The notes beneath the pieces were generated by a model, which saw only the letters and a program-made list of their open reading frames with translations, searched no databases and had not been told where the DNA came from. DNA of 39,988 bases from Lactiplantibacillus dongliensis (GTDB taxonomy: Bacteria; Bacillota; Bacilli; Lactobacillales; Lactobacillaceae), in NCBI RefSeq assembly GCF_005405105.1, contig NZ_BJDK01000034.1:1-39988 (forward strand), read 5' to 3'. Each line of letters starts with the position of its first letter. Position 1 is the stretch's first letter. A program made the position numbers and the translations under genes. Positions 25,975 through 36,697 of this stretch are shown piece by piece.

Positions 25975-26169
25975 TTAATCACCTCCTTTTTGGCCAGCTG
26001 TTACGACTTCCGAAAGCCAGCCAACTAAAAACAAAGCGACAGCAATTGCTAGAACGCCCTGTGCTTGCCCAAATAAAAAGGCTGCATATACCCCAGCAAT
26101 CATACCTAGAATGAAACACAGCACATCAAAGTAATGCCAGATAGTTGCAAAAAATTGTTTAAAAATCAT
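25975..26169 (-). CDS. Small membrane protein, DUF1056-like
   Basis: A 64-residue protein with two hydrophobic helices (FDVLCFILGMIAGVYAAFLFG, then VLAIAVALFLVGWLSEVV) and a short charged tail. Small proteins of this type (DUF1056) sit between terminase and portal in many lactococcal and lactobacillus phages; their function is unknown. ATG at 26169 has AGGAG nine bases upstream; the earlier ATG abuts it. The gene overlaps terL. Confidence 0.75.
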   Translation of the reverse strand: MIFKQFFATIWHYFDVLCFILGMIAGVYAAFLFGQAQGVLAIAVALFLVGWLSEVVTAGQKGGD

Positions 26170-28057
26170 TAATATCATCTCCTAGCAATCCCGACTCTGG
26201 GTCATTAAACCATTCGAGAACTTGTTTTTCGTTCATACGTTCCACTTGCTTATCAGGATTGTTCACATCTGAAAAGTCTTCAAAGTGATACATGGCTTGA
26301 TACAAGGCATCAATCAGCGCATCAACCACATCAATTTTAAGTGTGGCTTTAGCCTTATCAACCTGAATTCCAATCTTATCTTCATAGATTTCTGCATTCA
26401 GCAGCGCCTTTTCCATAATTCGATCATCAAGCCGGTCAACTGACCCTTCAACAAACACCTTTTGCAGAAACTTGGTTGGATCTTTCAGTTCACTGGTTCG
26501 TTGACGAATAGCTTCTAACGGCCAGCCAGAATTAAGTTCCAGCTGTTTGATAGCCGGCGTAGCTCCCCAAGCATCATAGCCAAAAAAGACCACCTCTAAC
26601 CGGTGACGATCCACGAAGTTAAGCAGCCACTGATAGACTTGCTCGTCATTAATCAGACCTTGTGGGTGGCTACTAATCGTGCAGAAACCTTTTTTAGCTA
26701 AGTCCCGATAATTAATACCGTCTTGTTTTTCTTTAGCTTCAATCGAACCAGCTTTCTGCCACGGAATAAAGCTATGCTGATACATAAACCATCGTGGATT
26801 GCCCTTAGCATCCTGATAGGGGAACACAAATGCCAAAGCGGTATTATCGCTAAACATTGAGTAGTCAAATCCAATGTAGACTTGGCGATCATCAAAACTA
26901 AATGATGGCACAATGGCTTTTTCAACGTCAGGCAGTTTTAAGAAGCTGTCGGTCGATTGTTCTAGCCACAGGTTTAGATTTTTGTTTTGGAAATCGTTGA
27001 GTGTGCCCGACAAAGCGTCAGAATCGCGCTTATCTGTCAAGCCGTTCAGCAACACTTCTCGTTGGCTCGGTAAATCTAGTAAGGGATTACTTTTAACCCA
27101 CATATCGGGCTTATAAGTTTCGCCCAGATTGTCCTGCGACCAAATAAGTCCCAAATATGTATCAGCATCGCGTAAATAATCTTGTTCCATGGCTTGCTGA
27201 ATCATGCGCTCATCATCATGGAACGGAACAGTGGGATCGGGATATGCCGTTGAAATTTGAATAAATTGTTTATTGCGTACCTTAACTTGACCCGAAACAA
27301 TTTTAGAAATCTTCTGCCGTGTCTTAATTTCACCAATTTCATCAAAAATAGCAGTTGTAAAGTGAAATGAGTCGTACTGACCGGCCTCATGGCTAATCGC
27401 ACGTAGCTTGTTATTAGTCTTGCTCATTGTGACTTGATCGGCCTGTGAGGACAGCGTCCGTGTATCTAATCCACTATCAGCAATCAATGACTTAAATGGC
27501 TCAATCGTTGCAATCTTAGCGAGCATTGACTTAATGTAGCCTAGAATTTTACTAGTTTGTTTGTAATTAATAGAAGATACTAAGTAATCTTGGTTAGATA
27601 GTCCCAATGACTCAATCAAAAAACTATAGGCAGTGATAATCGCCATCAGATAAGTTTTGCCTTGGCCACGCGCAACGGAAACAATTGCTCGTGAGAAACG
27701 CTTGCCGCCGTCATCATTACGCCAGCCAACCAGCATAGCCATAATGAATTCTTGCCACGGCATAAGCTTGGTTGGTTCGCCTGTATCAACGTTTGGACAG
27801 ATGGAAGCAAATTTAAGCACTTGGTCTACTTTCTTAACCGAATAAGTAAAGGGAAATTCAACGCTGCCTTGACGTTGCAAGTCTCTAATATGGCGAAAAG
27901 CCGCTAACTTGATCAAATAGCCAGTAATTACCTTTTCATCAAGGACATCAAAGGCATACTTTGTGCCTAAATCAGTGTATTGTTGGCGAATTGCTGAGCA
28001 GTCTAATGATTGATAGGCTCCAATAACATCATGTGTTTGTGTTAAATCAATCTTCAT
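26159..28057 (-). CDS. terL: Terminase large subunit
   Basis: This 632-residue motor pumps DNA into the prohead and cuts it. Walker A is SVARGQGKT (about 127-135), Walker B is AIFDE (about 236-240) with catalytic Glu 240. The C-terminal nuclease starts YIGFDYSM with metal-binding Asp about 398. Sequence style (PWQEFIMAMLVGW, LISTAYPDP-like QISTAYPDP) fits the Terminase_1 family that pairs with P27 small subunits and cos-type packaging. AGGAG in front of the ATG. It follows terS by 2 bp. Confidence 0.96.
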   Translation of the reverse strand: MKIDLTQTHDVIGAYQSLDCSAIRQQYTDLGTKYAFDVLDEKVITGYLIKLAAFRHIRDLQRQGSVEFPFTYSVKKVDQVLKFASICPNVDTGEPTKLMPWQEFIMAMLVGWRNDDGGKRFSRAIVSVARGQGKTYLMAIITAYSFLIESLGLSNQDYLVSSINYKQTSKILGYIKSMLAKIATIEPFKSLIADSGLDTRTLSSQADQVTMSKTNNKLRAISHEAGQYDSFHFTTAIFDEIGEIKTRQKISKIVSGQVKVRNKQFIQISTAYPDPTVPFHDDERMIQQAMEQDYLRDADTYLGLIWSQDNLGETYKPDMWVKSNPLLDLPSQREVLLNGLTDKRDSDALSGTLNDFQNKNLNLWLEQSTDSFLKLPDVEKAIVPSFSFDDRQVYIGFDYSMFSDNTALAFVFPYQDAKGNPRWFMYQHSFIPWQKAGSIEAKEKQDGINYRDLAKKGFCTISSHPQGLINDEQVYQWLLNFVDRHRLEVVFFGYDAWGATPAIKQLELNSGWPLEAIRQRTSELKDPTKFLQKVFVEGSVDRLDDRIMEKALLNAEIYEDKIGIQVDKAKATLKIDVVDALIDALYQAMYHFEDFSDVNNPDKQVERMNEKQVLEWFNDPESGLLGDDINDF

Positions 28058-28059
28058 TA

Positions 28060-28518
28060 TCAGTCTCCTAGAAATTCTTTCATACGATCACTAATACTTC
28101 GCTCGTCTTTGTGGTCATCTAAGTTTAACTTGAGCAAATCACTACGTGACTTAGGAGATAGTCCCAATTCAGCGCCTAGTTTAGTCAGATTTTTAACCGC
28201 TGAATCGTAAATTTGTGTCATAGGATTACGCTTGTATCCCACGAAGTCTCGACCAATTTTTTTACCGGTCTGATCTTGTAACGTTTTATAGATTGCTTGG
28301 ACTTCACCGTTTTCCTGGATATGTTTATACGCATTGCGGTAAATCTCATACTGAGAAGCATATTGTTCCACAAGTCCGCTATCAATGCGTCTAACTGGGG
28401 TGTTATCCTCTAAAAAAGGCACTAATCGACGCCAAACGACCTTAGCTTGCCGTCCTAAGTAAGCTGGCGGTGTGCGCGTTAATTGACCGTTGTTGACGTC
28501 TTTATCTGCTTTTTTCAT
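28060..28518 (-). CDS. terS: Terminase small subunit, P27 family
   Basis: The 152-residue protein recognises phage DNA for packaging. P27-type features: TPPAYLGRQAKVVWRRLVPFLEDN, VEQYASQYEIYRNAYKHIQENG, NPMTQIYDSAVKNLTKLGAELGLSPKSRSDL. ATG is preceded by AAGGAGG. A 205-bp non-coding stretch, the probable cos region, lies before it, and the HNH gene stands on its other side. That triad is usual for cos phages of Firmicutes. Confidence 0.93.
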   Translation of the reverse strand: MKKADKDVNNGQLTRTPPAYLGRQAKVVWRRLVPFLEDNTPVRRIDSGLVEQYASQYEIYRNAYKHIQENGEVQAIYKTLQDQTGKKIGRDFVGYKRNPMTQIYDSAVKNLTKLGAELGLSPKSRSDLLKLNLDDHKDERSISDRMKEFLGD

Positions 28519-28723: not shown

Positions 28724-29236
28724 TTATTTCTCATTCATTAATACAACGATTGACGATACATCATTGATTGGTGTTACACTTTGTAGCTCATTGCCTTGAC
28801 CAGTGCCATAGTATGATTGTTCCCAGTCTGTCTTAGCACGATGGCAGCTCCTACAGATTACGGCTAAGTTATCAACGTTAGCTTTCAATGTTTCATCAAA
28901 CTCAATTGGCACAATGTGATCGACTGTCTTAGCAGGTGTGATAACGCCTTGCACTTTGCAGTAAGCACATAAGTAATGGTCACGCTCTAGGACTTGTTGC
29001 CTTAGATGTGACCATTGCCTTGTCCGATAGAAGCTGTATTGCTGACGCTTAGTGTCATCACGATTACGTGTGACCGTGTTGTACTTGTGAGTATATTGTT
29101 TGTCATTGCTACGTGCCCAACGTTGACGACTAGCCAGGTACTCAGCTTCATGCTCATAGTGCTGCTGACAATAGTGGTCAGGGAAAGTGACCATCGCATG
29201 GCAGTTAGGATAGCGGCATCTTCTTGTCTTTGGCAT
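28724..29236 (-). CDS. HNH endonuclease of the packaging module
   Basis: The 170-residue protein begins MPKTRRCRYPNCHAMVTF with a Cys/His cluster, then carries a classical HNH motif: CAYCKVQG, VDHIVPIEFDETLKANVDNLAVICRSCHRAKT. Homologues next to TerS/TerL support the terminase in cleaving cos DNA in cos-type phages. ATG at 29236 follows GGGGGA and starts within the small gene upstream (32-bp overlap). It is the first large gene after the early/late terminator. Confidence 0.88.
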   Translation of the reverse strand: MPKTRRCRYPNCHAMVTFPDHYCQQHYEHEAEYLASRQRWARSNDKQYTHKYNTVTRNRDDTKRQQYSFYRTRQWSHLRQQVLERDHYLCAYCKVQGVITPAKTVDHIVPIEFDETLKANVDNLAVICRSCHRAKTDWEQSYYGTGQGNELQSVTPINDVSSIVVLMNEK

Positions 29237-29381
29237 GTTGCTTCCCCCGTTTCTTTTCCAAACTAAAAGCGCCATGCTTCTTAGCACGACGCTTCATCCA
29301 TTTATCTAAGTGGGCATCCATCTCCGCTTCTTTCGGCGTGACGTAGCCGTATTTTGTGTTAGTCATCTTTGCCATATTCAT
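29205..29381 (-). CDS. Small basic phage protein (58 residues)
   Basis: This frame (MNMAKMTNTKYGYVTPKEAE, then MDAHLDKWMKRRAKKHGAFS) ends LEKKRGKQHAKDKKMPLS. ATG at 29381 has AGGAG nine bases upstream, and an internal ATG is possible at 29375. The protein is very basic. It begins 27 bp after a strong terminator and overlaps the HNH gene, so it opens the packaging operon. Family unknown to me; nucleic-acid contact is plausible from charge. Confidence 0.65.
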   Translation of the reverse strand: MNMAKMTNTKYGYVTPKEAEMDAHLDKWMKRRAKKHGAFSLEKKRGKQHAKDKKMPLS

Positions 29382-29407
29382 TGTGGTTACTCCTAAATTT
29401 ATGTATC

Positions 29408-29434
29408 AAAAAAGCCCAGTGATTAACTGGACTT
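29408..29434 (-). terminator. Strong terminator between the tRNA-like element and the packaging operon
   Basis: On the minus strand AAGTCCAGT and ACTGGGCTT form a 9-bp stem (one G-T pair) around a 5-base loop, followed by six T. It stops transcripts arriving from the regulator gene or from the promoter near 29570, unless antitermination operates. Confidence 0.88.
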
Positions 29435-29451
29435 ACTGAGCTGTATAACTA

Positions 29452-29511
29452 TATCACCGGCAGGCCTCGAACCTGCATCCCATTGTGGCTTACCAATTAG
29501 CCCACAGCGAT
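29452..29511 (-). ncRNA. tRNA-like RNA lacking the anticodon arm
   Basis: Sixty bases read as a tRNA. The acceptor ATCGCTG pairs with CGGTGAT (two G-T), then T8-G9. The four-pair D arm GGCT/AGCC holds loop AATTGGTA with A14, G18G19 and A21. The five-pair T stem GCAGG/CCTGC holds TTCGAGG, and the discriminator is A. Between base 26 and the T arm are only nine bases (CAAT then GGGAT, the latter resembling a variable loop). The 17-base anticodon arm is thus replaced by four bases. It cannot decode. It could be a relic or a structural RNA that RNase P and RNase Z may cut, as these read the acceptor/T half. Confidence 0.75.
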
Positions 29512-29525
29512 TGCCAGTCTGTAAT

Positions 29526-29599
29526 TGCACGTCAATCACATTTGGCATACTACCAATTTAGCACGATTATAGGGGTCGAAAGTGCACGATTAGTGCACG
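29526..29599 (-). promoter_or_regulatory. TGCACG box cluster, likely activator operator
   Basis: TGCACG (CGTGCA on the minus strand) occurs at 29526, 29583 and 29594, with a one-mismatch copy AGCACG at 29560. Offsets are 34, 23 and 11 bp, close to whole helical turns, so the boxes face one side of the DNA. They surround a TATAAT box and follow the RinA-like gene, so they may be its binding sites. Confidence 0.5.
29566..29594 (-). promoter_or_regulatory. Putative activated promoter for the tRNA-like RNA or late operon
   Basis: TATAAT (29566-29571 on the minus strand) is a perfect -10 box. The hexamer 17 bp upstream (ACTAAT at 29589-29594) is no -35, and the TGCACG boxes overlap that place. 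This is the layout of a promoter that depends on an activator. The start would be near 29558. Confidence 0.5.
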
Positions 29600-29602
29600 T
29601 TT

Positions 29603-30028
29603 TTATATTTCATACAATCCAAACCCCTTAGCGCAATCGTTGATAAAAGTTTTCTTTAAGTCAAACGCTTTTCGACGGCTAACATTTATCATATGATTTG
29701 CAATTAATCCGTCAATTGTGTACTGCTGGTGTTTCTTAAAATATAGCTCATTTATAATTACTTCTGTATCACGGCCAACGCCGTCTAAACAATCATCAAT
29801 CACTTCTCGCTGACGCTTCAATGTGTTAATGCGCCGATCATCGTCAATTGTAATGAGCGTATTTAACGCCGTTTCCGGATACTTGTATTGCGCCTTGCCA
29901 CCTCCGACATTATCATCACGTGGTACAGTTGGATAACGTAATTCCTGTTCACGTTTCTCGATATACTTGTCAATCTTGGGATAGTCACGTAGAATATCTT
30001 CAACTTTTCTAATCGTCGTTCGTTTCAC
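29603..30028 (-). CDS. RinA/ArpU-family late transcription activator
   Basis: The 141-residue protein has the family pattern: KRTTIRKVEDILRDYPKIDKYIEKREQELRYP, NVGGGKAQYKYPETALNTLITIDDDRRINTLKRQREVIDDCL. A C-terminal helix-turn-helix follows (YTIDGLIANHMINVSRRKAFDLKKTF). RinA switches on packaging and late genes in staphylococcal phages; ArpU-type proteins are similar. GTG at 30028 has AAAGGGG eight bases upstream. Its place between early and packaging genes fits a late-gene activator that acts on the boxes just downstream. Confidence 0.85.
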   Translation of the reverse strand: MKRTTIRKVEDILRDYPKIDKYIEKREQELRYPTVPRDDNVGGGKAQYKYPETALNTLITIDDDRRINTLKRQREVIDDCLDGVGRDTEVIINELYFKKHQQYTIDGLIANHMINVSRRKAFDLKKTFINDCAKGFGLYEI

Positions 30029-30179
30029 TACCAATTCCCCTTTCACTCAACTCCGCAATGTCAGCAATGAAGTCCTAGCCAATTTGTGCCTGTTGCTCAA
30101 TTGTCAGTGCCGCGTTCATTTCCAAATTGGCAACTGTGGCTTTCGTTTGAATTGCTTTGGCGTATTCGATGTCAGTCAT
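30009..30179 (-). pseudogene. Small phage protein gene interrupted by an amber codon
   Basis: ATG at 30179 has GGAGG seven bases upstream and overlaps the YopX-like stop (ATGA). The frame gives 34 residues (MTDIEYAKAIQTKATVANLE, then MNAALTIEQQAQIG) and TAG at 30075-30077. The same frame then continues DFIADIAELSERGIGSETND to the next stop at 30009, so one CAG-to-TAG change would explain a broken 56-residue protein. The 34-residue product may still be made. Family unknown. Confidence 0.6.
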
Positions 30180-35837: not shown

Positions 35838-36697
35838 TAGTTCACCGCCTCAAATTTAATACCATTCTTTTTCATATATGAAGATAGCCCCCACATCTGG
35901 TCTTTAGTGGCTGTAATTTTCAAAGTTCGAGTAAGGGACACTACTTCGCCGGTGTCTGTATCGACAATTTTACCGGTACTCGTTTCTTGCTGATGCTCTG
36001 CAGCCACTTGCTGTTTAAGCTCTCGCTGACGTTCACGTTCTTTGGCTGATTCGACTTGCCGGTCAATTGCCTGCAACAAGTACTGGACGTCCTGTCCTTG
36101 CTTCAACTGGTCAATCCATGGGATGGGATCAACGTCGACTGCTTGAGCATACTTGGTAATCATCGTTGTGGCAGTAGCCAACTTATCCTTGGCTTGCTTT
36201 ACCACCGTCATCGACGATGCAACTTCTTGAGTGATTTGTTTGTTGCTGATGCTCTTATTCAGCCAACGAGGATCGAATTCAATTTCATCCACCCCAACGT
36301 CGTAATTGGGTGCCATTTCAGCAATCAAGTCCATCACGTCAGCTTTGCGTTGTTCACGGCGTTTAACCTCCAGCTCACCAAGCCCTTCATCAATCGGATC
36401 AATGATCATGTCGATGCTGGCTTCAAGCTTTTTTACCTCGGTTTCAAACTCACGTAATGGTTGATTATAATTTCGCTTGATTTCTTTGCGCCGATCATCA
36501 AGCGCCTTTTTGAGCTTGTTCAATTTGGCCCGCACTTGCTTGCTGTCAGTTACGTTATCTTCGGTAATTACTAAATTTGAGTAACGCGATACATATTGCG
36601 CAATGGACGCCTGCAATCCTTCCAAATTGTTAATTTTAATTGGTACCGGTTGATAGTCCACCGTGTAGTCTGGCAGATTAATTACTTCATTCGCCAT
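35837..36697 (-). CDS. DUF1351 protein of the recombination cassette
   Basis: The 286-residue protein (VDYQPVPIKINNLEGLQASIAQYVSRYSNLVI...LKKALDDRRKEIKRNYNQPLREFE) matches DUF1351. A long helical region (about 60-245) with coiled-coil heptads is followed by a short C-terminal domain (LTRTLKITATKDQMWGLSSYMKKNGIKFE). It is placed before ERF and SSB in Lactobacillus and Listeria phages; an accessory role in recombination is assumed but not proved. Confidence 0.88.
   Translation of the reverse strand: MANEVINLPDYTVDYQPVPIKINNLEGLQASIAQYVSRYSNLVITEDNVTDSKQVRAKLNKLKKALDDRRKEIKRNYNQPLREFETEVKKLEASIDMIIDPIDEGLGELEVKRREQRKADVMDLIAEMAPNYDVGVDEIEFDPRWLNKSISNKQITQEVASSMTVVKQAKDKLATATTMITKYAQAVDVDPIPWIDQLKQGQDVQYLLQAIDRQVESAKERERQRELKQQVAAEHQQETSTGKIVDTDTGEVVSLTRTLKITATKDQMWGLSSYMKKNGIKFEAVN

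Follow-up and report, generated by a model that had tools for sequence, protein, structure and literature searches.

In a 39,988-nt stretch of DNA from Lactiplantibacillus dongliensis (contig NZ_BJDK01000034.1, hereafter the window), a 60-nt sequence, element A, looks like a conserved phage RNA with the shape of a tRNA rather than a broken tRNA, to judge from its sequence and from those of its relatives; its function is putative. Comparison of these sequences shows that the upper half of a tRNA, namely the 7+5-bp acceptor/T stack and the D/T elbow bases, with T74 and no CCA in this genus, is maintained by selection and that the lower, decoding half is absent or exchanged and can be dispensed with.

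A tRNA-like element without an anticodon arm

On re-reading, all three arms and the conserved bases that the initial annotation had recognized at 29511-29452 of the minus strand were confirmed. The element and its parts are as follows.

29452..29511, minus strand: element A, anticodon-less tRNA-like, 60 nt including discriminator A73 (sequence reading, alignment, covariation, model score)
29505..29511, minus strand: acceptor 5′ strand ATCGCTG, 7 pairs with 29459-29453
29487..29502, minus strand: D arm GGCT-AATTGGTA-AGCC (sequence reading and covariation)
29482..29485, minus strand: CAAT in the place of the anticodon arm (sequence reading and alignment)
29477..29481, minus strand: variable region GGGAT (sequence reading)
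29460..29476, minus strand: T arm GCAGG-TTCGAGG-CCTGC (T stem by covariation)
29453..29459, minus strand: acceptor 3′ strand CGGTGAT, paired with the acceptor 5′ strand
29451..29451, minus strand: T74 after the discriminator, without CCA; predicted RNase Z cut before T74

The acceptor stem forms 7/7 pairs, with G-U at pair 4 and U-G at pair 6, and is followed by two linker bases; the D stem forms 4/4 pairs and is accompanied by A14, G18G19 and A21; and the T stem forms 5/5 pairs around the loop TTCGAGG. The D arm is followed, in this order, by A-CAAT-GGGAT, the T arm, the acceptor 3′ strand and A73, the CAAT and the 5-nt variable region replacing positions 27-48 of a tRNA. With phage and host tRNAs, element A shares the acceptor, D and T arms, the elbow bases and the 3′ flank, where T74 and the lack of an encoded CCA fit the host maturation route; it differs from them by the absence of the anticodon arm, and hence of decoding.

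Conservation and covariation of the three arms

Relatives were taken from 21 genomes of the same genus, the named phages Sha1, zrk29-2 and phiJL-1, and prophage-like plasmids. The exceptions in the alignment were a masked copy (L008), a degenerate copy that had lost its T arm (L014) and one with an odd D arm (L026); these three, along with L013 (a near copy of L010) and L027 (the same place as L012), were dropped before the counts on this first set. No anticodon arm with an anticodon was present in the window copy or in any aligned relative complete at element A, in line with the lack of the arm initially described. In the 19 remaining sequences (17 distinct), 98.9% of 272 cells were standard pairs. 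Among the 17 distinct sequences, 7 of the 16 pairs had changed on both sides, and the covariation score of 0.303 (0.209 in shuffles) was reached by none of 500 shuffles, control structures slid along the alignment pairing at only 19-45%. RNAalifold recovered the three arms unprompted, adding pairs 8-28 and 9-27, which are foreign to an ordinary tRNA. A model built from 17 relatives with the window copy left out (R2) scored that copy at 86.9 bits (E 9.2e-23), the runner-up being the tRNA-Leu at 23.5 bits. The shuffles, the slid controls and this out-of-sample score thus bear out the claim that the pairing exceeds chance, and the alignment of related phages that had been proposed as a check displays both compensatory changes in the arms and a constantly missing anticodon arm.

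The same model found all 100 of the pattern-chosen loci supplied to it (73.7-91.6 bits; 20 further loci were not supplied). Among the 57 distinct sequences of these loci, 98.5% of cells paired; none of 500 shuffles reached the covariation score, and 8 of 500 reached the count of pairs changed on both sides. G-U cells outnumbered A-C cells by 60 to 12 in the 57 sequences and by 21 to 3 in the 17, an excess which argues that selection acts on the RNA. Pattern scans yielded at least 120 stretches in IMG/VR and 12 from genome contigs, some of which may repeat one prophage; 131 of these 132 instances had at least 6/7 acceptor and at least 4/5 T pairs, and the remaining one, L199 (4 acceptor and 4 T pairs), was rejected as a chance match. 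Because the pattern demanded a short distance from D to T arm, this set cannot by itself prove the absence of the anticodon arm.

These data bear on two alternative explanations. One holds that element A is a DNA-level site near the packaging genes, such as a terminase recognition site, with an inverted arrangement arisen by accident. Terminase genes are indeed near and the phiJL-1 copy lies close to the end of its record, but the predominance of G-U over A-C cells, the retention of the T-loop and D-loop bases of a tRNA and an orientation fixed with transcription make this very improbable. The other, the main alternative in the initial annotation, is that of a tRNA relic which lost its anticodon arm and kept the rest by chance or recency. 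Its loops are those of ordinary tRNA, and two probable homologues from one other genus carry something in the arm's place: L051 (67 nt) has a CTCA-GTGA-TGAG mini-hairpin below, and L050 (75 nt), the nearest to a complete tRNA that was found, has an odd arm and is read by ARAGORN as 'tRNA-???' with a four-base anticodon. Against this, the arm-less form is maintained by compensatory changes and arm-less forms occur on unrelated backbones too, and neither a complete tRNA in homologous phages nor loss of the pairing in relatives was encountered. We give hardly any credence to a relic as the present state of element A, of which a tRNA relic may nonetheless be the origin. Two more specific derivations were discarded: a complete tRNA cut by a single deletion in the window, the 16 extra bases of relatives sitting in the leader and not in the arm, and an attP remnant of a host tRNA, which is unsupported, the next matches of the element model in the same genome reaching at most 24.2 bits and being mostly ordinary tRNAs.

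Genomic context of element A

Element A is oriented like the late genes and lies between an activator gene and the HNH and terminase genes.

29603..30046, minus strand: upstream gene, late activator (profile match to phrog_36, weaker to the Alt-like phrog_2198)
29582..29599, minus strand: two direct repeats CGTGCAC-TAAT-CGTGCAC, probable activator site (spacing kept; binding inferred)
29555..29563, minus strand: probable late promoter core, extended -10 TGCTAAATT (kept in ArpU-type alignment rows)
29512..29554, minus strand: leader, without the 16-nt CCTCC piece common to most relatives (alignment)
29412..29434, minus strand: terminator-like hairpin, 9 pairs, 17 bases past element A
28724..29287, minus strand: HNH endonuclease, downstream
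28060..28518, minus strand: terminase small subunit, downstream
26159..28057, minus strand: terminase large subunit, downstream

The initial annotation pointed to a TATAAT box ahead of the element. This box lies at 29571-29566, but varies in relatives (TACAAT, TAAAAA, TGAAAT and others) and is probably not the promoter core; conserved instead in the ArpU-type rows is the extended -10 TGnTAAATT, also TGnTA(A/T)ATT, with its window copy at 29563-29555. Because the pattern used for the motif count prescribed the TG, its conservation was read from the alignment alone, and 62 of 159 instances had no such motif within 260 nt. The 9-bp terminator described downstream is likewise present (hairpin 29434-29412), at a spacing of 17 bases and not 18.

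Direct repeats of about 11 bp, roughly one helical turn apart, precede the late promoter, and their sequence, which differs between phage groups, is perhaps matched to the type of activator. A different contig of this genome has a stretch similar to the window repeats (G000:C3:897-928). Among the leaders of relatives, 4 of 7 clusters showed a loop bearing CCTCC or the like that could pair with Shine-Dalgarno sequences and was often antisense to a start site, as against 0.35 in shuffles; the window copy does not have this loop, and the finding is a lead only, the test having been devised after the motif was seen. Most relatives have further T arms downstream, whereas no tRNA-like other than element A precedes the terminator in the window. 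The window copy is thus a trimmed version, with a leader piece lost and the downstream T arms missing.

Among 135 loci, each represented by one instance, an ArpU homologue lay upstream in 69, at 100-119 nt in 66, and 58 had a tblastn match to the HNH, TerS or TerL protein of the window downstream. Another T arm followed within 420 nt in 93 loci, and a terminator within 140 nt, with no tRNA-like before it, in 10. In about 52, a phage tRNA-Trp and/or tRNA-Asn preceded the element within 600 nt, one of them (L083) being preceded by a phrog_248 activator and followed by TerS and TerL. The flanks differ widely among loci. That element A is an autonomous anticodon-less unit, as first suggested, is supported by the lack of the arm in complete relatives, the covariation of the arms and the recurrence of the unit with different flanks. 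In phiJL-1 (AY236756, about 36457-36674), element A and an element B described below stand unannotated at the right terminus of the linear record. The region of zrk29-2 (OP650937, L032), whose recorded host is Tenericutes, resembles Lactiplantibacillus prophages, and this host label may be wrong.

Two explanations in cis draw on this arrangement. With the late promoter on one side and, on the other, a terminator-like hairpin followed by the HNH and terminase genes, element A could be a leader of the late operon, its RNA targeting RNA polymerase or the following terminator by antitermination or attenuation. We regard this as improbable, since the element comes after real tRNA genes at the 52 or so loci mentioned and is terminal in the phiJL-1 record, and many other viral-contig elements are placed otherwise; the part in the late-gene switch that had been proposed is a positional argument. 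Alternatively, the element would serve only as punctuation, RNase P and RNase Z excising it and so releasing the leader RNA and whatever tRNA-likes or late mRNA lie downstream, with the excised piece idle. The kept features are just those that processing enzymes read, further T arms lie downstream at 93 of the 135 loci and phage tRNAs ahead at about 52, and the leaders carry a possible small-RNA loop. In the window and at the 10 loci where a terminator comes first, however, nothing tRNA-like is left to be freed, the flanks differ widely, and mere cutting would not call for so strict a retention of the D arm and elbow, all of which leaves punctuation alone an unlikely explanation, if a less remote one than the leader. 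That element A is the sole tRNA-like before the window terminator favours a role of the RNA itself.

Comparison with gene finder output and known RNAs

ARAGORN did not call element A in the window, where its sole tRNA was a tRNA-Leu at 1441-1526 and no tmRNA was found, and it reported none of the element A copies among the loci tested. At gathering thresholds, Rfam found the tRNA-Leu of the window and did not report element A, and a permissive Rfam scan of 29300-29700 gave no tRNA. Elsewhere the Rfam tRNA model calls some copies 60-nt tRNAs (e.g. L005, L007 and L177) and misses near-identical ones, because of which the annotation of element A will be patchy. Folding energy by itself gives no preference for the tRNA-like form: the minimum for element A is -20.3, a value matched by 32 of 200 shuffles, whereas its tRNA-like fold has -17.5, and several relatives' copies also prefer other folds as single strands. 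For the 154-nt stretch to the terminator, 3 of 200 shuffles fold equally well, and its fold is not a cloverleaf. The case therefore rests on comparison.

Like element A, YrlA (RF02553) is a noncoding RNA with a tRNA-like domain, one without an ordinary anticodon arm. Element A has no Ro-binding stem and appears to sit outside an rsr/rtc operon; Rfam gave no YrlA match in the window and a 13.3-bit partial match in L012 alone (gathering 69). The tRNA-like domain of YrlA is mentioned, and a decoy role proposed for it, in PMC7790460. As in tmRNA, a tRNA upper half occurs without an anticodon, but the 60 nt of element A hold no tag reading frame and its pair 3-70 is C-G, not the G3-U70 alanine identity pair. 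GOLLD and ROOL, phage noncoding RNAs near tRNA islands (PMC12286853), are much larger and structurally unrelated. No GOLLD (RF02032) was found in the window, nor above gathering in 13 further loci; a GOLLD piece in L006 (2687-2940, plus strand; 78.9 bits, gathering 150) lies about 1 kb downstream of element A and is followed by a tRNA that ARAGORN reads as Met. The skipping-rope RNA (RF02924), similar in its two-hairpin layout, had no match in the window and a single weak one in L012 (25.7 bits, gathering 36.7), where tRNA scores 48.8. Searches of an open-licence library, which mostly lacks subscription papers, turned up no account of phage tRNAs without an anticodon. We rate element A as neither a tRNA, having no anticodon, nor a tmRNA, and place it with the tRNA-like RNAs.

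Related elements beyond the genus

When 301 family genomes were scanned with a model, the matches listed included 55-60-nt ones in at least six other genera beside many ordinary tRNAs; only the 55-60-nt rows and L050 and L051 were carried forward. Membership of all 150 R1-positive genomes of the 301 was rejected, most matches listed being 83-86-nt tRNAs. L204, L206 and L208, from three genera, carry elements that lack the arm, have unrelated stems and are preceded by a phrog_248 activator, and in L206 TerL lies downstream; L207 and L209 are similar by eye only. A tRNA-Ile-like sequence with a D loop insertion was seen by eye downstream of the L207 element. From this wider set, L205 (no late junction seen), L210 (host tRNA cluster) and L220, L221 and L232 (poor D stem) were dropped; the arm-less tRNA-like of L210 (885-941, plus strand) stands within the cluster beside a run of N.

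A generic pattern matched 32 of 397 family genomes, which is not a census because the pattern misses this genus itself, whose D arm ends AAGCC; 11 of 30 family loci passed the pairing filter, three of which coincide with L204, L206 and L207. Sixteen of 398 Bacilli genomes had matches, and none of the 21 loci examined there passed. Matches such as GGTAAAACCGTCTCG were set aside as ordinary tRNA-Ser/tRNA-Thr whose anticodon loop reads GGTA (by eye). In IMG/VR, at least 121 instances were found, of which 21 of 121 passed, with at least two sequences present twice; the null was a mean of 0.35 and a maximum of 3 in 300 flank shuffles (single-base shuffling). The IMG/VR elements have varied surroundings (DNA polymerase, tail, capsid and TnpB-like genes, as judged by eye or Pfam), so that a place at the late junction characterizes lactobacilli and is not general.

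Several further arrangements were noted. Three arm-less tRNA-likes surround a TnpB-like gene on a 180-kb viral contig (L298:350-3610, minus strand), and one lies just ahead of a TnpB-like gene in L326 (373-1735, plus strand). In L149 (3767-5549, minus strand), an AAA_21 ATPase and a RloB-like protein, which resemble known defence pairs, are encoded between the prophage's tRNA-like island and its terminase genes. Element C, seen by eye downstream of element A in L007, L023 and L153, has an acceptor such as GTGATTG/CAATCAC, an ordinary T arm and unusual content between the two.

Element B, as in L004 from about 1714 (plus strand), was represented by 52 distinct sequences among the loci examined. 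It has a Leu-type D arm, a 6-bp T stem and usually the acceptor GTGCTTG/CAAGCAC, and in place of the anticodon and variable arms it carries an insert of 33-103 nt, the inserts falling into 15 classes unrelated to one another; the same layout, built on different stems, recurs in L206. When one insert per class was compared by blastn with the collected loci and the window, the matches were to further copies of element B; one class also matched 17 bases in L276 and L374, both of which carry the same element. A reading of the inserts as antisense RNAs was set aside. The pair of an empty element A and an element B with a variable insert suggests that the tRNA fold is used as a processing scaffold.

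3′ end signals and predicted maturation

T74 was present in 159/159 and A73 in 156/159 instances, counts that are redundant, overlapping loci having been counted repeatedly. Of 58 host tRNA matches, 30 were examined, 27 with T74 and one encoding CCA. T74 occurred in 14 of 16 typed elements of mixed origin, including the window's family; among the 21 viral-contig elements, C or G is frequent at 74, and none has CCA at 74-76. The T74 signature is therefore not general, being weaker outside this genus.

RNase P, RNase Z and the CCA-adding enzyme need just the upper half of a tRNA, the half that is kept, and the simplest inference is that element A probably matures like a tRNA. Processing by RNase P and RNase Z is likely given T74 and the missing CCA: the host enzymes would cut element A from the late transcript as they do host pre-tRNAs, and addition of CCA would leave a stable RNA of about 60 nt. 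In a streptococcus, RNase Z is documented to cut CCA-less tRNAs directly behind the discriminator (PMC8549757). The first acceptor pairs are not shared among the 16 typed elements and G3-U70 occurs in 0/16, which makes one common amino acid unlikely.

Possible role of element A

With confidence that is evenly balanced, we propose that element A is a functional RNA gene of the phage whose product, an anticodon-less tRNA, is transcribed where the late region begins; because this RNA cannot decode, it would most likely act as a tRNA mimic. It would occupy an enzyme that grips tRNA by its upper half, the most attractive target being a tRNA-cleaving defence nuclease, which would find no anticodon loop to cut; the same cuts that release it may trim the leader and neighbouring tRNA-likes. 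The narrower role of a decoy for tRNA-handling enzymes, among those first suggested, would fit the missing anticodon loop and is put forward tentatively. A shade more doubtful is its extension to a general class of phage upper-half tRNA RNAs of several origins, lacking the decoding half (element A) or bearing a payload instead of it (element B), which host tRNA enzymes would mature and stabilise and which would act late in infection as uncleavable decoys or tRNA-scaffolded effectors against tRNA-attacking defences.

tRNA gene finders look for an anticodon, and such genes consequently escape notice. Should element A be transcribed and processed as tRNAs are, phages maintain tRNAs incapable of translation, and the question of what phage tRNAs do would become testable apart from decoding; since the loci sit in cultivable food lactobacilli, such tests are feasible.
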